From positions 1-38,087 of the forward strand of contig CAIQCB010000021.1 in assembly GCA_903870245.1 (NCBI GenBank): DNA of 38,087 nt, in the 5' to 3' direction. Below the pieces are notes generated by a model, which was not told where the DNA came from, made no database searches, and saw only the letters and a program-made list of their open reading frames with translations. This DNA is from an uncultured Methylocystaceae bacterium. Lineage in GTDB: Bacteria; Pseudomonadota; Alphaproteobacteria; Rhizobiales; Beijerinckiaceae. A program made the position numbers and the translations under genes. Every line of letters begins with the position of its first letter. Position 1 is the first letter of the stretch. Shown piece after piece: positions 6,084-37,936 of this stretch.

Positions 6084-8537
6084 ATGCCCGATTTTCATGA
6101 TCTCTCACGCGCTCTCGTCGCCAGACTGCGCGCCGCCTTGTCCTCTCGCCCAACGCCTTCCGGGCCGGAGAATATAGCCCCCCCGAGGGCGCCGACGTTG
6201 CTGGACCGGCTGTTGTTTCGGTCGAAACAGGCGATTTTTGTCGAGCGTCTGCTGCGGCTGGTCGCCGCATTGGCGACGCTTGCGCTGTTCTTTGTCGCTC
6301 TTTCCTGGCTGGACCTGTGGCGGCCGGCCCCGGTTGAGGCGCGCATGGCCGGCGTCGGTCTCGCCGGCTTTCTGGCGCTGTTCCTCATTGTGCGGGAACT
6401 CGCCCGAGGTTGGCCTTCCCGCGCCAGCGCGCTGCAGCGTCTCGACGCCGCCGCCGCGGCTCCGTTGCGGCCAGCCCGGTCCCTCGACGACACGCTCGCC
6501 GCGCAAAAAGACGATCCCGCCACCCGCGCCTTGTGGGATGTGCATCGTCGGCGACTTGAGGCGACCCTGGCGGAAACTCCGATCGCGTCCCCGCACCCGG
6601 AATTGGCGCGCCGCGACCCCTTCGCCTTGCGCGCGCTGGCGCTCGTCGCCGCCGTTGCTGCGGGCTTTGTCGCTGGCGACGAAAAGGGCGCGCGTCTGGC
6701 GGCGGCCTTCGACTGGCGGGCCGGCGACCGTCTTCTGGGATCGTCCGACCGGATCGACGCCTGGTTCGAGCCCCCCGCCTACACCGGTCGTCCGGCCATC
6801 GTGCTTGGATCGGAGGGTGGGGCAATCGAGGTCCCGCAGGGCGCAATCCTTCGCCTGCGCCCCGGGTCGACGCGCGTCGCCGTCGAAGGCGGGCTCATTC
6901 CGGCGCCGCCGGAAAAATCCGATCCGCCGGCGGAGGGCTCAAAAACCGATGCGTCGCCGGCTCCGGTCTACCGGCTCGCCAGCGCGGCGCGGCTGGCGCT
7001 GCCCGATGGCCGGCGCTTCGAGGTGACGGCGACGCCCGACCTACCGCCGAACGTCGCCCTGGCGGCAAAACCCCGCAACAACGCCCATGGTTCGATGACG
7101 CTCGCCTATGAGGCGAGCGACGATTACGGCGTCGCCAGCCTTGAGGCCGTCTTCGATCAACAACCGGGCGGTCGTCGCGCGCTTTACGCGCCACCGCGTT
7201 TACCCCTGTCGCCGCCGACTGGTCCGGGCGGCGTCGGGACCGGCAAGACGACGCTCGATCTCGCCGAGAACCCTTTTGCCGGCGCGCCCGCGATCTTGCG
7301 CGTCGTTGCGAAGGACGGCGCGGGACAGGAGGGCGCCTCGTCGCCGGCGGCGGTCGTGTTGCCGCAGCGCCGATTTAGAAAGCCTCTGGCGCGCGCGCTG
7401 ATTGAACAGCGCCGTATATTGGCGCTTGATCCAGACAATCGCGCCGTCGTGCGTCTGGCGATCGAGGCGCTGGCGTTGGCCCCGGAGGCTTTCGACACGC
7501 CTTCCGCCGTTTTTCTGGGTTTAAGGGCGGTTCGCTTTGGTCTTGAAGGGCCGCGCACCGACGACGAGTTGCGGGGCGTCGTCGACATGCTCTGGTCGCT
7601 GGCGTTGACGGTCGAAAATGATCGCGCCCCGCAGGCCGAAAACGATTTGCGCGCCGCCGAGCAAGCGCTGCGCGAGGCGATTGCGCGCGGCGAAAGCGAG
7701 GAGGAGATCGCTCGCAAGAGCGAAGAATTACGCGCAGCGCTCGATAACATGCTTGAGCAGATGGGCGCGCGTCCCGATCCCAACCGATCGCCTTCCCGCT
7801 CGGCGTCGGGCGATTCCGACACTCTCACGCCGGAAGACTTGCAGTCGATGCTTGATGAGATCGACAAGGCGATGAAGTCGGGCGATACGGCGCAGGCTCA
7901 GCAATTGCTCGACGAATTGCAGGACATCATGGAGAATTTGCAAACGGCGGAAGGCGGCGCTGCGGGCTCACAACGTCAGCAGGGCGCAAAAGCGCTCAAG
8001 CAGCTCGACGATCTGGCGCGTGAGGAACAGCAACTGCGCGACGAAACCTTTCAGGGCGATAACGGGACAAAGCAGAGGCAACATGCGCTGCGCGACCGTC
8101 TGGAGAGCCAACAAAAGGACATGGAGGGCGCCGATCCAGAGGCGGAGGGCGACTTCGACGCCGCCCGTCGGGCGATGAAGGAGGCCGAGGAGGCGCTGGG
8201 GCCAAAAGGCGAGGGGCGCGAAGCGGCGGTCGAGGCGCAGGGGCGGGCGGTGGAGTCCCTGCGCAAGGGCGCTGATCGGCTCGCTGAGAAAATGCGCGGG
8301 GAGGGCGAGGGAGACGGCGAAGACGGCCGGCCTTCGGGACGTCGGCGGACCGGGAAGGGCCAGGATCCTTTGGGTCGCAGCAGCGGCGGCAAGCAGGCGC
8401 GCGGGAAATACGATCCGCTCGGTCTGCCGCCAGCCCAACGCGCCCATCGCGTGCAGGAGGAACTGCGTCGTCGTTTGGGTCAGCCGGAGCGGCCGCCGGA
8501 AGAACTGGACTATCTGGAGCGCTTGCTTCGGCGATAA
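6084..8537 (+). CDS. DUF4175 / TIGR02302 family membrane protein
   Basis: This protein of 817 residues matches the large alphaproteobacterial family TIGR02302 (DUF4175), whose function is not established. Two hydrophobic segments lie close together near residues 50-95 (LVAALATLALFFVALSWL and VGLAGFLALFLIVREL) and a weaker one near 185-200. A large, probably periplasmic, middle part follows, and then a highly charged, Gln/Glu-rich C-terminus from about residue 500 with predicted helices (ALREAIARGESEEEIARKSE) and Gly/Arg-rich linkers. The ATG at 6084 is preceded by CTGGAG at good spacing; a TTG at 6066 would add six residues. Confidence 0.85.
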   Translation: MPDFHDLSRALVARLRAALSSRPTPSGPENIAPPRAPTLLDRLLFRSKQAIFVERLLRLVAALATLALFFVALSWLDLWRPAPVEARMAGVGLAGFLALFLIVRELARGWPSRASALQRLDAAAAAPLRPARSLDDTLAAQKDDPATRALWDVHRRRLEATLAETPIASPHPELARRDPFALRALALVAAVAAGFVAGDEKGARLAAAFDWRAGDRLLGSSDRIDAWFEPPAYTGRPAIVLGSEGGAIEVPQGAILRLRPGSTRVAVEGGLIPAPPEKSDPPAEGSKTDASPAPVYRLASAARLALPDGRRFEVTATPDLPPNVALAAKPRNNAHGSMTLAYEASDDYGVASLEAVFDQQPGGRRALYAPPRLPLSPPTGPGGVGTGKTTLDLAENPFAGAPAILRVVAKDGAGQEGASSPAAVVLPQRRFRKPLARALIEQRRILALDPDNRAVVRLAIEALALAPEAFDTPSAVFLGLRAVRFGLEGPRTDDELRGVVDMLWSLALTVENDRAPQAENDLRAAEQALREAIARGESEEEIARKSEELRAALDNMLEQMGARPDPNRSPSRSASGDSDTLTPEDLQSMLDEIDKAMKSGDTAQAQQLLDELQDIMENLQTAEGGAAGSQRQQGAKALKQLDDLAREEQQLRDETFQGDNGTKQRQHALRDRLESQQKDMEGADPEAEGDFDAARRAMKEAEEALGPKGEGREAAVEAQGRAVESLRKGADRLAEKMRGEGEGDGEDGRPSGRRRTGKGQDPLGRSSGGKQARGKYDPLGLPPAQRAHRVQEELRRRLGQPERPPEELDYLERLLRR

Positions 8538-30726: not shown

Positions 30727-30951
30727 TCAGGTCAGTCGCGTCGAGGCGCGCAAACGCCCCCACAGGCCTATGCATTCGCCAGCAACGGCGGCGGCGGCGG
30801 CGACAAGCTCGGCGCCATGTTCGGCGGCGATGGCGGCCGCAGCCTGATTTTCCGGCGTGATGACATAGCCAAAAAAACCGCCAATTGTTGCGACGATGGC
30901 GAAGATGTTGCCCCACACGCTGACGGATTTCCACCAGGGTTTTCTATCCAT
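30727..30951 (-). CDS. Putative holin
   Basis: This 74-residue protein begins MDRKPWWKSVSVWGNIFAIV and has two hydrophobic segments: one near residues 10-28 (SVWGNIFAIVATIGGFFGYV) and an Ala-rich one near 38-60, ending in a basic tail (WGRLRASTRLT). The KxWW start, the GFFGY turn and the ITPE segment look like phage holins, which form the inner-membrane holes that let endolysin out. The start has AAGGAG at good spacing and overlaps the endolysin stop by 8 bp. A longer upstream frame is ignored because of this site. Confidence 0.7.
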   Translation of the reverse strand: MDRKPWWKSVSVWGNIFAIVATIGGFFGYVITPENQAAAAIAAEHGAELVAAAAAVAGECIGLWGRLRASTRLT

Positions 30952-31519
30952 TCGATTTCTCCTTTTCCTTCTGCGATGAAACTTTCGAATTGGCGGGTGT
31001 TTGTTGCGCCTGCAGCAGCGCGTCACGAAAAGCGTGGGCGAAAAGCGCAATCAGGCGCGCCCGATCCAGTCCGTTGACGATGCGTCGGGCGCCGATGTAA
31101 TTGACCGCGCCATCGGCGATGTAGTCGGATAGCTTGCGTCGGGTGAAAAGCCCGCGCGTCATGCCCTCGAAGGCCGCATGCAGCGCCAACGGCCATGACA
31201 TCAGATCGCCGGGTTTGGTCGCGCCGAATTTTCGGGCGTTTTCCTCCCATGTTACCTGCACGAGACCTTCGCCGACCCAGGGGTAGTATTTTTTGGTTCT
31301 CAGGTAGCGTTCGCCTCCGGCTTCGCGCACCGGGACCATGCGATGGCCCGTTTCCCACTTGATGGTCGCCAGCACATAAGCGAATTGATCGTCGCTCATG
31401 GTCGGATGATGACTGTCGCGGTAATCGAGGATGCGTCGCAGACCATCGACTTGTTGAACCGTCAGGCGCCCGCCAAACAGGGCGTGACGGATGCGCTCGA
31501 AGAAATAGCTTCTGTTCAT
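30944..31519 (-). CDS. Phage-type endolysin (GH19/lysozyme-like)
   Basis: This 191-residue protein resembles phage endolysins of the chitinase-like lysozyme fold. A likely catalytic glutamate is E56 in LATIKWETGHRMVPVREAGG. The segment YYPWVGEGLVQVTWEENARK corresponds to the conserved glycine-rich region that includes the G-x-x-Q motif of this fold, and NGLDRARLIALFAHAF follows. There is no signal peptide, so release needs the holin encoded next. GAAAGGAGCG lies upstream of ATG 31519. It leads a four-gene cassette. The exact glycosidase family assignment is uncertain. Confidence 0.75.
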   Translation of the reverse strand: MNRSYFFERIRHALFGGRLTVQQVDGLRRILDYRDSHHPTMSDDQFAYVLATIKWETGHRMVPVREAGGERYLRTKKYYPWVGEGLVQVTWEENARKFGATKPGDLMSWPLALHAAFEGMTRGLFTRRKLSDYIADGAVNYIGARRIVNGLDRARLIALFAHAFRDALLQAQQTPANSKVSSQKEKEKSNG

Positions 31520-32519: not shown

Positions 32520-32687
32520 ATGAAAAAACTTCTGGCCGCCCTCATTCTGGGCCTCGGCGTCGCCAGCGCGCCCGTCGCCGCTTCGGCGCATACGACCGGC
32601 AAGCCGCATTCCCACAGCGCCGGCGCCTGCCATCATCACCACCATCATCACCATCACCATCACCACCATCACCACCATCATCACTGA
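32520..32687 (+). CDS. Secreted peptide with an 18-histidine C-terminal tail
   Basis: This 55-residue peptide has a signal peptide (KKLLAALILGLGVASAPVAA, cleavage likely after ASA) and a mature part of about 33 residues: HTTGKPHSHSAGAC and then 18 consecutive histidines to the stop. AAGGAG at 32506-32511 places the start at ATG 32520 rather than 32514. Histidine codons alternate CAT and CAC, so the tail is not a pure triplet repeat. Such tails bind Ni, Co, Cu or Zn, so periplasmic metal storage or delivery is likely, but no partner gene is near. The single cysteine before the tail could also bind metal. A terminator-like hairpin follows. Confidence 0.72.
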   Translation: MKKLLAALILGLGVASAPVAASAHTTGKPHSHSAGACHHHHHHHHHHHHHHHHHH

Positions 32688-32757: not shown

Positions 32758-33657
32758 TCAGTCCTTTTTATCTCGCGCCGCGCGCAACCTGTCGAAGCCC
32801 AGCCAGCGCGCCACTAACCAGTCGCTCAATCGCGTCGGCAGCAGCGGCGGCAACACATAATCCGTAAGCAAGTTCTTCACCACGGCGATGCGCGCAGGCG
32901 GCTTCGGCGCGCAGAGCGCAAATTTCACCGCTTCGGCGACGCGCGAGGCGGGCGGCGCCGATCGCCCGTGTTCCACAGCCCATGCCTGTACGCGACGCCC
33001 GGCTGCTTCGTAGATCGTGCCGTCGAAGGGAGAGAGATCGTGGCTGTTCAGCTTGTCCCAGATGGGCGTGGCGATCATGCCGGGTTCGACCACGACGACA
33101 TCGACGCCATAGACGATCAATTCGCGTCGCAACGAGTCGGAGAGGCCTTCGAGACCGAATTTCGAAGCGTTGTAGGCGCCCATGAAGGGTTTGGCGAAAC
33201 GCCCCGCCACCGAACTCATGTTGACGATGCGCCCCGGCGCACCCTTGCGTCGGTCATTTCCGGCGCCCAACAGGGGCGCGAAGGCTTGCGTGACTTTTAA
33301 CTGACCGGTCAGATTAATGGCGATCTGGCGGCGAAAATCCTCCATGGGCAAATGAAGCAGGGGGCCTGGAAAGGCGACGCCAGCGTTATTGACGAGACCC
33401 GCCAGGGTTTCGCCGTTCAGTCGCCCACCGACCTCCTGCGCGGCGGCGTCGATCGCCGCATCGTCGAGGATGTCGAAGCGCAGCGCCGCGAAACGATCGC
33501 CAAAGCTCTGGCTGAGACGGCTGGCGTCCTCTTCGCCCCGTACCGATCCGAAAACGAAAAAGCCTGCGTCGATCAGCGTCTCGACGCAGGCAAGCCCAAT
33601 GCCGGTGGAAGCGCCAGTGACGACGACGACTTTTTTGTCGCTTGTCGTCGCGTTCAT
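32758..33657 (-). CDS. Short-chain dehydrogenase/reductase
   Basis: This 299-residue classical SDR has the nucleotide-binding TGASTGIGLACVETL at about residues 14-28, NNAGVAFPG, and the catalytic set: Ser in NMSSVAG and Tyr-x-x-x-Lys in GAYNASKFGLEGLS. The C-terminus includes a hydrophobic LLTDYVLPPLLPTRL. It reduces or oxidises an alcohol or ketone with NAD(P), but the substrate cannot be read. I chose ATG 33657 because it overlaps the thiE-amidase stop as ATGA. It is the last gene of the thiamine operon transcript, although a thiamine role is not implied. Confidence 0.88.
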   Translation of the reverse strand: MNATTSDKKVVVVTGASTGIGLACVETLIDAGFFVFGSVRGEEDASRLSQSFGDRFAALRFDILDDAAIDAAAQEVGGRLNGETLAGLVNNAGVAFPGPLLHLPMEDFRRQIAINLTGQLKVTQAFAPLLGAGNDRRKGAPGRIVNMSSVAGRFAKPFMGAYNASKFGLEGLSDSLRRELIVYGVDVVVVEPGMIATPIWDKLNSHDLSPFDGTIYEAAGRRVQAWAVEHGRSAPPASRVAEAVKFALCAPKPPARIAVVKNLLTDYVLPPLLPTRLSDWLVARWLGFDRLRAARDKKD

Positions 33658-35015
33658 GCCTGCGCCTCCAGTAGTCGGATCAAGATTTCGCAGGTCGAGT
33701 CGTCGGCGAGGCCGTCGACGCGCGCGGGACGAAAATGTCGCTGAAACGCCGTGATCGTTGCCGCCGTGTCCTCGTCGTAGACCCCGCTCGCCTCGATTTT
33801 GTAGCCGAAGCTGGCCAGACGCCCCTGCAACTGCGCGATGTCCGCGCCCTGGTCCCCCGGCGCCCATCGTGCGCCAGCTTGCGGCGCCGGCGCCGGTATG
33901 AACCGTCCGACGCCGTGTCGCGCCAGCGCCTCCCAGGGGAAGAATTCACCAGGATCGATTTTGCGGCGCGGGGCGATGTCGGAATGCGCCAGCACCCGCT
34001 CGGGCGGGATCGCATGCCGCGCGCAAATACCGCGCGACAAATCGATGACGGCGGCGATCTGCGCCGGCCCGAAGGGTCGCGGATCGTTATGGCCGGGATG
34101 CGCGACCTCGATACCCACAGAGCTTGAGTTGATGTCGGTTTCTCCCGCCCAATAGCTGGCCCCGGCGTGCCACGCGCGCCGCGCCTCGGGGACAAGCTGA
34201 AGGATGACGCCCTCCTCATCGACGAGATAATGCGCCGAGACCTGCGCAATGGGCGAGCACAGCAATTCCAGCGCGCTCTCAGCCGTCGGCATGCCGGTGT
34301 AATGCAGGATGAGCGAGGTGACGGCGCGCGTGCGCAGGCCATGATTGGGCGAGGGAAAAACCTGCGCCATGGCGTGATCGGCCTGGAATGTCCCGCAGAG
34401 CTCCGGCGTGTCGCGCCAGGGCGCCGTCGCCGATGTCCATTCTGCGGCGCGCGCTTCGGGATCGGCATGGCGTAGCACATCAGTGACGACGCAGGCGCTG
34501 TCGGCCCCGGCGGCGAGCGCCAGACAGGCCCGCGCCGGAGTCAGGCCGCCGATGGCGACAAGCGGCGTTTCGCCAATGCGTTTCTTCCATTGCGTCACGC
34601 GCGCCAGCCCCTGCGGCGCGAATGTCATAGCCTTGAGCAAGGTCGGCCAAACCGGGCCAATCGCGACATAATCCGGCTCCAGCGCGAGGGCGCGCTCCAG
34701 TTCTTCCTCGGTGTGGGTCGAGACTCCAATGCGCAACCCATGCCGACGGATGGCGGTTATGTCGGCGACGTCAAGATCTTGCTGTCCGAGATGAACGAAA
34801 TCGCAGCCCAGATCGATAGCGTCGCGCCAGTAATCGTTGACGATAAGCTGAGCGCCAGCGGAGCGACAGAAATCGCGCGCGCGCGCGATTTCGTCGCGCG
34901 TTACGTCGTCAGGGCGGTCCTTGAGGCGCAATTGCACGAGCCGCACGCCCTGCGGCAGCAGGCGCGGCAACCAGTCAGCAGTGTCGACGATGAGGTAGAA
35001 CGGATCGAGATGCAT
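33654..35015 (-). CDS. thiE: Fusion: thiamine-phosphate synthase ThiE + N-acetylmuramoyl-L-alanine amidase
   Basis: This 453-residue frame joins two unrelated enzymes. Residues 1-200 are ThiE, joining HMP-PP and thiazole phosphate: QLIVNDYWRDAIDLG, DFVHLGQQDLD, LRIGVSTHT, YVAIGPVWPTLLKAM and LVAIGGLTP are present. Residues 225-370 are an Amidase_2 domain of AmiD/AmpD type with LILHYTG (H238), GIEV (E303), and AHSDIAPRRKIDPGE (H344, K352, D354). A peptidoglycan-binding domain ends it (386-450; GDQGADIAQLQGRLASFGY). No stop or signal peptide separates the parts, so the amidase should be cytoplasmic unless it starts internally; an in-frame ATG at 34370 (M216) could give a separate 238-residue amidase. 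Start ATG 35015, 56 bp after thiG. Confidence 0.87.
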   Translation of the reverse strand: MHLDPFYLIVDTADWLPRLLPQGVRLVQLRLKDRPDDVTRDEIARARDFCRSAGAQLIVNDYWRDAIDLGCDFVHLGQQDLDVADITAIRRHGLRIGVSTHTEEELERALALEPDYVAIGPVWPTLLKAMTFAPQGLARVTQWKKRIGETPLVAIGGLTPARACLALAAGADSACVVTDVLRHADPEARAAEWTSATAPWRDTPELCGTFQADHAMAQVFPSPNHGLRTRAVTSLILHYTGMPTAESALELLCSPIAQVSAHYLVDEEGVILQLVPEARRAWHAGASYWAGETDINSSSVGIEVAHPGHNDPRPFGPAQIAAVIDLSRGICARHAIPPERVLAHSDIAPRRKIDPGEFFPWEALARHGVGRFIPAPAPQAGARWAPGDQGADIAQLQGRLASFGYKIEASGVYDEDTAATITAFQRHFRPARVDGLADDSTCEILIRLLEAQA

Positions 35016-35071
35016 GATGCAGGCGTTGTCGCCGATTTCCCTTAAGGACAGGTATGCGTCGGCGCAAAAGT

Positions 35072-35857
35072 TCAGGCGTTCTGGTCGAAGGGCCGGTCGA
35101 TCGTCGGCGTTGATGGCTCGGCCATATCGCGCGGGGTCATCGGTTGCGCCCGCCAGCCGGCGCGGCCCGCTTCGACCGCCAGCCGGAAGGCGCGGGCCAT
35201 GCCGACGGGATCGCCGGCGCGCGCCACGGCCGTGTTGAGCAGCACGGCGTCATAGCCCAGCTCCATGACCGCCGTTGCATGGGAGGGCGCGCCCAGCCCG
35301 GCGTCAACGACCAGCGGCGTGTCGGGAAAATGCGCGCGCAGGGCGCGCAGCGCGAAGGCGTTGTTGACGCCGCGTCCCGAGCCGATCGGCGCCGCCCAGG
35401 GCATCAACACCCTGCATCCTGCATCCAGCAGGCGTTCGGCGACCACCAGATCGTCGGTGGTGTAGGGGAAGACGCAAAACCCCTCTGAGACAAGCGCACG
35501 CGCCGCATCAACCAGCCCGAACACATCGGGCTGAAGCGTATCTTCTTCGCCGATCACCTCGAGTTTGATCCAGTCTGTGGCGAACACCTCGCGGGCCATT
35601 TGCGCCGTAGCGACGGCTTCCTTCGCCGTTCGGCAACCGGCGGTGTTGGGTAGCGCCTTCACGCCAAGATCGCGGATCAACGCCCAGAAACTTTCGCCAG
35701 AGCGACCGCCGCCGGCCTCGCGGCGCAATGAGACCGTGACAATCTCGCATCCCGATGCGCGAACGGCCTCGCCGAGAACAGCTGGCGAGGGATAACGCGC
35801 CGTGCCGAGCAACAGTCGCGAACCAAGATTCGCGTCGTAGAGCGTCAGCGGGTCCAT
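35072..35857 (-). CDS. thiG: Thiazole synthase ThiG
   Basis: ThiG forms the thiazole phosphate ring of thiamine from deoxyxylulose phosphate, dehydroglycine and ThiS thiocarboxylate. At 261 residues it is normal length. Motifs include [13 protein letters not shown], the Schiff-base Lys in [46 protein letters not shown] and [18 protein letters not shown], and then [12 protein letters not shown]. The ATG 35857 abuts the thiS stop, so the two are co-translated, as their products work together. Confidence 0.96.
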
Positions 35858-36055
35858 TTATCCTCCCTGACGCGGCGTGACGATTTCGACGGCGTCGTCG
35901 TCTTTCAACCGCATCGTCTCGCGGTCCCGGTCCCGTACGAATTCCTGGTTGATCGCCGTGCCGACCTTGCGGTCGCCATAGCCCAGTTCCTCAAGAAGCG
36001 TCGCGAGCGTCGTCGCTTGCACCTCAAGCGAACGCCCGTTCACCAGAATGCGCAT
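35858..36055 (-). CDS. thiS: Sulfur carrier protein ThiS
   Basis: ThiS is a 65-residue ubiquitin-like protein that carries sulfur as a C-terminal thiocarboxylate to ThiG. It begins RILVNGRSLEVQATTLATLL, has VGTAINQEFV, and ends in the essential Gly-Gly (VTPRQGG). Its start lies 32 bp inside the end of thiO, so the genes overlap. The overlap is probably real because the thiS start reads as a typical one. Confidence 0.95.
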   Translation of the reverse strand: MRILVNGRSLEVQATTLATLLEELGYGDRKVGTAINQEFVRDRDRETMRLKDDDAVEIVTPRQGG

Positions 36056-37037
36056 TTGTCAGCTCCGGAAAATCGACGCCGTCGCACACGATCCGCGCGG
36101 CGCGCGCCGCCAGCGCCGGCGCGAGCAGGAAGCCATGCCGATACAGGCCGTTGATAAATAGAGTTCTCCCGCGCAGCGTCAGCCGCGGCAAGTTATCGAC
36201 GAAGGCGGGCCGCACATCCGAGCCGGTTTCGACGATTTCCGCCTCGCCGAAGGCGGGATGCAGGGTAAAGGCGGAATTCACCAGTTCCACGATCGAGCGC
36301 GCCGTCACGCGGGCCCGCTCCTCATTTTCAATCATCGTGGCGCCGATCATGAACAGCCCATCGCCGCGAGGCACAATATACGCCGGCCGACGCGGGTGCA
36401 GCAGGCGCACCGGGCGCGACAGGCGGATGTCGTCGCTGCGCAGCAACAGCATTTCGCCCTTTACTCCGCGCAAGCCCGGCAGAGCGCCGCGCGCCGAAAA
36501 ACCCCGGCAATCGATTGTCCAGTCGGGCGCGGGCGGCAGCGCGTCGGCGTTGACGCCGAATCGTCTAGCGACATTCGGCAGACTGGCGAGGCGCGCATCG
36601 AGCGCCGAAAGCGCCTGGCGCGGATCGAGATGTGCTTCTGCGGGAAAATACAGGGCGCGCGGAAATCGTCCGGCAAGGTCGGGCTCCAGCGCCGCGATAC
36701 CGTCGGCGTCGAGGCGACAGAAATTTTTGGTGCGACGGGCGAAATCGGTCAGTTCGGCGGTTTCGCGCGCTGGCGCCACGACCAGGCTACCGGCGATCGT
36801 GGCGACGGCGAGTTCACGGCTCCAGAAATCCAGCGCCTCGCCGCCGAGACAGGCGACCAGGGGCTCGGCGTTCTCCAGTTCGCACCAGGGCGCGATCATG
36901 CCGCCTGCGTAGCGCGAGCAGCCCGCGCCGACCGCCGCAGCCGTCTCGACAAGTTCGACCTCGACGCCGGCGCGCGCCAGCGCCCATGCGGCGCAAAGGC
37001 CTGCGACCCCGGCGCCGATGACCCGGGCGCGGATCAT
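36024..37037 (-). CDS. thiO: Glycine oxidase ThiO (FAD-dependent)
   Basis: ThiO oxidises glycine to dehydroglycine for thiazole formation. The 337-residue protein has the FAD-binding N-terminus VIGAGVAGLCAAWALARAG with GxGxxG and a Glu at the end of the second strand, plus GAGCSRYAGGMIAPWCELEN, typical of ThiO, and a C-terminal INGLYRHGFLLAPALAARAA. ATG 37037 is the first in the operon behind a TPP riboswitch. No strong ribosome site is visible, which fits regulation at translation. Its end overlaps thiS. Confidence 0.9.
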   Translation of the reverse strand: MIRARVIGAGVAGLCAAWALARAGVEVELVETAAAVGAGCSRYAGGMIAPWCELENAEPLVACLGGEALDFWSRELAVATIAGSLVVAPARETAELTDFARRTKNFCRLDADGIAALEPDLAGRFPRALYFPAEAHLDPRQALSALDARLASLPNVARRFGVNADALPPAPDWTIDCRGFSARGALPGLRGVKGEMLLLRSDDIRLSRPVRLLHPRRPAYIVPRGDGLFMIGATMIENEERARVTARSIVELVNSAFTLHPAFGEAEIVETGSDVRPAFVDNLPRLTLRGRTLFINGLYRHGFLLAPALAARAARIVCDGVDFPELTNAHSGERAFA

Positions 37038-37083
37038 GTTCGCGCCGCCCGCGCGAATCTGAACGACAAATATTGACGCACCA

Positions 37084-37205
37084 TCCCTCCGCCAGTCGTG
37101 AGCTGGATCAGGTTCAAAGGGTCGCTGCGCCGCGCCAGATGCGCCCGGCAGCCTCTCAGCCCCTCGTTGCGCGGGTCCATGCCGCGCCAGCGGGGCTCCC
37201 CCGGC
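37084..37205 (-). promoter_or_regulatory. TPP riboswitch (THI element)
   Basis: On the minus strand the leader of thiO shows the conserved thiamine pyrophosphate riboswitch parts in order: GGGGCTGAGAGG with the CTGAGA loop, CCCTTTGAACCTGATC, and GGCGGAGGGATGG. AGCCCC upstream pairs with GGGGCT, and an extra hairpin (GCGCGG / CCGCGC) occupies the variable P3 arm. It should turn down thiOSGE when thiamine pyrophosphate is plentiful. The 5' boundary is approximate. Confidence 0.93.
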
Positions 37206-37351
37206 TGCCTGCAGGGTCGCGCAAAAGGGCGAGTCTCGTCAAGCGGCGGGCGCCGACCTTGCCGGCGGCGTCGCAGGACACCAGTTTTGACTAGTGGCGC
37301 AATCCCCGGCAAAGGCCGGCGAGATGCGCGTTTGTCTAGGGAGAAAACCTT

Positions 37352-37936
37352 ATGTTCGCCAGCAAAACGGCGGCGCGCGGCCGCGCCCTTCTCGCTGCGG
37401 TCGCCATCGCTGGGGGCCTCAGCCAGTTTCTGACGCCGGCGCAGGCTGCGCCACTCGGAGAATATTTTCCGGTGCCTAACGGCTTCAACCTCAACGGAAT
37501 CGCCAGGGACGCCTTGTTGAGCGTCGAGGCGACATGGCTGCAGGACGGGCTCGATAACCTCGCCAAGGCGAAAAAGGAGACCGAAGCGGCGCTCGAGAAG
37601 GCCAAGGGCGGGGCCCAGGACCAGGCGGCGGCGCTTGAAGACAAGCTCAAGAAAATCGACAAACTGAGCGAGGACGCCAAACAAGAGCTTGCGCTTGCTA
37701 AAAACACCGACTCGGATCGCGCCGTTCAGGGGCCTCGCAAGGACAAATTGCTAGCGAACCTCAATCAATGGATCAACGAACTCAATCATCTTGCGACCGA
37801 GCAGATGAAAATCGCGATTATGAAAGACGGCAACGAAGCGCTGGCGGCGCAAAACCGCAACTATCAGCTCTCTGAACAGGCCGATAATCTCGAAAAGGCA
37901 AAGCGCGATCCCAGCATCGAGAACTGGGGCAAATAG
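37352..37936 (+). CDS. Secreted coiled-coil hypothetical protein
   Basis: I do not recognise this 194-residue protein. It has a signal peptide (ALLAAVAIAGGLSQFLTPA, cleavage after AQA) and a mature part that starts APLGEYFPVPNGFNLNGIAR. The middle is a long heptad-like helix rich in Ala, Lys and Glu (NLAKAKKETEAALEKAKG; LKKIDKLSEDAKQELAL). There are no cysteines and no known motif. AGGGAG is well placed before the ATG. It is divergent from the thiamine operon. Periplasmic and possibly structural; function unknown. Confidence 0.72.
   Translation: MFASKTAARGRALLAAVAIAGGLSQFLTPAQAAPLGEYFPVPNGFNLNGIARDALLSVEATWLQDGLDNLAKAKKETEAALEKAKGGAQDQAAALEDKLKKIDKLSEDAKQELALAKNTDSDRAVQGPRKDKLLANLNQWINELNHLATEQMKIAIMKDGNEALAAQNRNYQLSEQADNLEKAKRDPSIENWGK

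Follow-up and report, generated by a model that had tools for sequence, protein, structure and literature searches.

Fusion of thiamine phosphate synthase to an AmiR-type peptidoglycan amidase in Methylocystis, very probably vertically inherited

The closest solved structures by sequence to the amidase considered here are AmiD of Escherichia coli and AmpDh2 of Pseudomonas aeruginosa, the latter also by fold, and both are envelope enzymes. A counterpart in layout is found in Caulobacter, in which AmiR, an AmpD homolog with Amidase_2 and PG_binding_1 domains, is a proven recycling amidase (PMC13046382). We have analysed a stretch of 38,087 nucleotides, referred to as the window, from an uncultured Methylocystaceae bacterium (contig CAIQCB010000021.1), in which a single gene joins thiamine phosphate synthase (ThiE) to an amidase of this type. 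To our knowledge, no link is known between thiamine synthesis and cell-wall recycling pathways, and the gene clearly exemplifies how enzymes of seemingly unlinked pathways can be stably fused, a situation in which an annotation name taken from one half conceals the other. As judged from sequences and trees, it is a new combination of known parts, of single origin and long kept.

The fused reading frame and its distribution

An uninterrupted 453-residue frame carrying ThiE, a zinc amidase and a peptidoglycan-binding tail, as given in the original prediction, is indeed found on the minus strand (33654-35015), stop-free, while the plus strand of the same stretch contains stops. Three Pfam domains score above their curated cut-offs, TMP-TENI at residues 12-179 (E 1.2e-45), Amidase_2 at 229-357 (E 2.5e-35) and PG_binding_1 at 389-445 (E 2.2e-12). 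The ThiE part has the ThiE fold and matches the NCBIfam equivalog for thiamine phosphate synthase, NF000734, over positions 1-201 of 201 with 303.7 bits (cut-off 252), and TIGR00693 with 145.2 against 145.1 bits. The amidase half scores 102.4 bits against PRK11789, the NCBIfam equivalog of canonical AmpD, below the cut-off of 143, and is therefore classed as AmiR-like and not as canonical AmpD; Amidase_2 and PG_binding_1 are both present in the two standalone orthologs tested. The predicted amidase residues H238, E303, H344, K352 and D354, which we take to be zinc ligands and catalytic residues, are all present and are invariant in 33 of 33 fused genes. Synonymous divergence is high and non-synonymous divergence low, and purifying selection acts on each half. 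The N-terminal half would join hydroxymethylpyrimidine diphosphate (HMP-PP) and thiazole phosphate to form thiamine phosphate, and the C-terminal half, of the AmpD/AmiR kind, would remove stem peptides from imported muropeptides. We infer from the sequence that both enzyme activities probably reside in the cytosol, in a single uncut product. A catalytically dead half, retained only to stabilise or regulate its partner, would suit two pathways without a link known to us, but is very improbable given the invariant amidase residues, the equivalog-level ThiE score and purifying selection on both halves.

The fusion is uninterrupted over near-full length in 33 of 39 Methylocystis genomes, the window's own included, the other 32 copies being 65-83% identical to the window copy. 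The halves lie apart in four genomes of the genus (G001, G004, G015 and G017, the ThiE gene of the last being broken by contig ends), are adjacent but in different frames in G021, and neither was seen in G034, an assembly of about 490 contigs. A scan of named-species genomes, examined for the best 80 of 507 loci encoding relatives, yielded 22 full fusions (L091-L112) and the split copy L113; among the remaining 57 of these best 80 loci either thiE or the amidase was matched, never both. The fused loci are titled Methylocystis, Methylocystaceae, Hyphomicrobiales or Alphaproteobacteria bacterium and include isolates and metagenome-assembled genomes (MAGs). The two sets overlap and their fusion counts are not independent. 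In a family-wide sample, five of six genus members are fused, and no fusion was found in 143 family genomes of other genera, of which 142 gave a match, the best in the complete table of best matches covering one half (3.7e-95). Likewise, both genus members of an order-wide sample are fused, with no fusion in 395 order genomes outside the genus, where the best match is again to one half (2.8e-87) and 20 genomes are without any match. No paper describing a ThiE-amidase fusion was found by title or abstract start in the open-licence literature.

Of the two explanations originally offered, a lineage-specific fusion is borne out by its retention in 33 of 39 genus genomes, by the one-half matches elsewhere and by the fused clade in the trees described below. 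The other, a stop lost or a base gained or lost through an assembly or sequencing error, is refuted by the same 33 intact frames, shared by isolates and MAGs and diverging at synonymous far more than at non-synonymous sites, and can be practically dismissed.

Coordinates of the fused gene, its parts and the neighbouring features within the window
Feature	Position	Strand	Remarks
Fused gene, ThiE + linker + Amidase_2 + PG_binding_1	33654..35015	minus	453 aa
ThiE part, thiamine phosphate synthase, residues 1-201	34413..35015	minus	NF000734; C-terminus compared with standalone ThiE
Linker, residues 202-209	34389..34412	minus	3 codons shorter in one subclade
Amidase part, residues 210-370	33906..34388	minus	with H238, E303, H344, K352, D354
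PG_binding_1 domain, residues 389-445	33681..33851	minus	Pfam
In-frame ATG (M216), internal start of the original prediction	34368..34370	minus	in 1/33 fused genes
SDR-family (short-chain dehydrogenase/reductase) dehydrogenase	32758..33657	minus	adh_short; ATG overlaps fusion stop (ATGA)
thiG	35072..35857	minus	PF05690
thiS	35858..36055	minus	PF02597
thiO-like FAD (flavin adenine dinucleotide) oxidoreductase (DAO)	36024..37037	minus	PF01266
Thiamine pyrophosphate (TPP) riboswitch aptamer (RF00059), favoured assignment	37067..37212	minus	49.2 bits, E 6.4e-08; gathering 54.3 not reached

Origin and descent of the fused gene

The thi genes and the amidase occupy separate places in five Methylosinus and four unfused Methylocystis genomes, and the latter four look like the older state. 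In six of these nine an SDR gene is already located behind the amidase; no such neighbour was found in G001, G017 and G140. Each of the 33 fusions is followed by the SDR gene, which in L016 is broken into pieces lying in different frames. A tree of thiE and thiG (94/55) and a tree of four joined genes (97/88) both unite the 33 fused rows with G021, and parsimony gives two changes of fusion state. For rpoB, located elsewhere in the genome, 30 genomes were asked, 28 matched and 27 were used, and a clade of 20 (18 fused, G021 and G034) is obtained at 99/99 for protein, in a tree whose outgroup is not one clade, and at 100/100 for DNA, in a tree with odd base make-up in G000 and G037. Because the joined-gene and rpoB trees unite the fused genomes in one clade, a single origin followed by vertical descent is indicated, and the best reading of these sequences would be one gain of the fusion and one later split. 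Separate genes in close relatives, which could have spoken against a fusion, occur only outside the fused clade, in the four unfused genomes, and once inside it, in G021. The linker of G021 (L033 about 7030-7050) is without 37 bases present in seven close relatives, which places the halves in different frames, through either a genuine split or a MAG artefact.

Standalone ThiE proteins of relatives end within about 20 residues past the conserved EW..AT, four of these proteins stopping 3-5 residues beyond it, whereas the fusion continues as PWR and linker. Amidases of the four unfused Methylocystis begin with M- or V-S/T-F, residue 3 of which corresponds to F210, invariant in 33 of 33 fused genes, while Methylosinus amidases start with different residues. 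The linker of one subclade is three codons shorter, in frame. In an ancestor of most Methylocystis, an amidase-SDR pair would have come to follow thiE, the last gene of the thiOSGE operon, without a gene between. The thiE stop and the amidase start would then have disappeared, so that about 5-8 linker residues remained. Loss of the separate amidase start would have locked in the fused arrangement. A change of compartment through the fusion, suggested by AmpDh2 and AmiD as nearest solved structures, was dropped, as the standalone frames have no evident signal peptide (28 loci by eye, including split G021), a reading in which starts are uncertain where the frame is open upstream and L156 is without a usable start in the stretch.

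Combined, the evidence makes it very probable that the gene is a true, vertically inherited fusion predicted to encode one cytosolic protein of ~49 kDa, the halves of which are most likely independent. Several observations weigh against this reading. A second, weaker TMP-TENI gene accompanies the fusion in 31 of the 33 genomes. In the window genome this second copy matches a thiamine phosphate synthase model, with a score below cut-off, and the fused ThiE may therefore not be the sole enzyme of its kind. AmpG is above cut-off in only 2 of the 11 genomes tested. The tree of the amidase alone yields two 17-row groups on an open fork, and in G021 the fusion has apparently come apart again. The predicted structure is less reliable, with low confidence, at 285-291 and at 346-356, a segment that includes K352 and D354, and five structure models range from 71.4 to 87.8. 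Finally, a GTG, a possible start, is found at reference position 236 in 24 of 33 fused genes.

With respect to recycling, AnmK and a GH3 protein (NagZ identity not shown) are encoded in 11 of 11 genomes tested, and in Rhizobiales YejBEF is reported to take the place of AmpG (PMC9790009). In G023, AmpG is broken by a stop; other recycling genes are present.

Further PF01510 matches occur in 15 of 33 fused genomes; third copies are present in G026, G029 and the split G021. The second amidase of G000 (L043 4742-5389, minus) has Amidase_2 only and adjoins ORFs (open reading frames) resembling tail sheath and tail fibre genes by eye; those of the other 14 genomes and G021 are 56-62% identical to it. 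The G013 copy (L201 6917-7528, plus), the sole one of these 14 and G021 taken through Pfam, also has Amidase_2 only and lies beside DUF2793. Redundancy of the fusion with a further amidase of the AmiR type was rejected, the second copies checked by Pfam (G000, G013) having no PG_binding_1. Since none of the 33 fused genomes has another strong ThiE and 18 of them have no other Amidase_2, the fusion permits a direct test between a neutral accident, made permanent once the second start was gone, and regulatory value.

Expression of the two halves

Cleavage of the polypeptide in the linker, or production of the amidase also by internal initiation, would separate the halves after all. The free amidase originally proposed from the ATG at 34370 is not supported, as this codon occurs in the window genome alone. 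ATG is absent from reference positions 197-215 in all 33 fused genes and occurs within 190-238 in six, at five different positions. The ATG at residue 216 of the window copy and GTG codons, at 219 in several genes in addition to that at 236, favour internal initiation to a degree; however, GTG 236 encodes the valine two residues ahead of H238, within the predicted strand 234-239, and lies unconvincingly deep, as initiation at this codon would truncate the amidase domain. The linker blocks are modelled with a predicted local distance difference test (pLDDT) score of 88 and 94, which counts against separate halves. We consider separate products distinctly unlikely and retain a single fused protein as the preferred product.

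The placement of the fusion in a thiOSGE operon under a TPP riboswitch, also part of the original prediction, held for the genes, with thiG, thiS and a thiO-like gene upstream, and less firmly for the riboswitch, whose 49.2 bits lie below gathering. We favour its assignment as a TPP riboswitch on the E value and the position before thiO. With a lax threshold, such an element is matched in all five fused relatives tested, each time with a score under gathering. At gathering it is listed in 4 of 11 sources, split L113 (54.4 bits) and unfused L037, L075 and L076, with no match at this score in L035 or in L106, the latter fused. The layout fits putative co-regulation of the amidase half through the riboswitch.

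The fusion may instead have been selected for regulation, the TPP level setting the amount of recycling amidase through the riboswitch and tying recycling to cofactor supply. The riboswitch matches upstream of thiO in the window and the five fused relatives, and the lack of any other PF01510 match in 18 of the 33 genomes with the fusion, are consistent with this. However, all six of these fused genomes score below gathering, and scores are higher in L037, L075 and L076, where the amidase lies elsewhere, which makes the riboswitch older than the fusion. Furthermore, thiG is separated from the fusion in at least two relatives, in G016 by an opposite-strand phage tail sheath gene (L092 4817-5929, minus) and in G020 by a PhyH dioxygenase gene (L102 4936-5961, plus); with an extra gene at this point, thiamine control of the amidase cannot be assumed throughout. 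Selection for regulation is unlikely on this evidence, and it is quite unlikely that the protein is a selected, riboswitch-governed bifunctional enzyme coupling the level or activity of wall recycling to vitamin B1 status, with packed halves that would influence each other. Vertical inheritance of a fusion with independent halves is the reading we keep.

A promoter and terminator scan of 33400-37400 gave one promoter-like site (0.4 in shuffles) and two terminator-like sites (3.9 in shuffles), nothing to build on. Beyond the SDR gene, positions 32520-32687 (plus strand) encode a small protein with an export signal by eye and a C-terminal run of 18 histidines, possibly a metal binder, and a 191-aa ORF at 30944-31519 (minus strand) resembles a GH19-type endolysin by eye, with no Pfam match at E 0.001.

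Comparison with known systems

The fusion differs from ThiE as otherwise known (NF000734, PF02581; Bacillus subtilis structures 2TPS/1G67) by its C-terminal amidase. Standalone ThiE proteins of relatives are 197-212 residues long, whereas the fused frame continues into the amidase. Caulobacter AmiR (CCNA_02650) resembles the C-terminal part of the fusion in domain layout, with Amidase_2 followed by PG_binding_1, but is without ThiE in front. Compared with AmiD and AmpDh2, the fusion carries ThiE in front and no evident export signal. A ThiE domain is likewise joined to another enzyme in THI6 (3NL2 group), PRK09517 and PRK08999; the partners in THI6 and PRK09517 are thiamine enzymes and PRK08999 is named a Nudix hydrolase, whereas the partner in the Methylocystis fusion is a cell-wall amidase.
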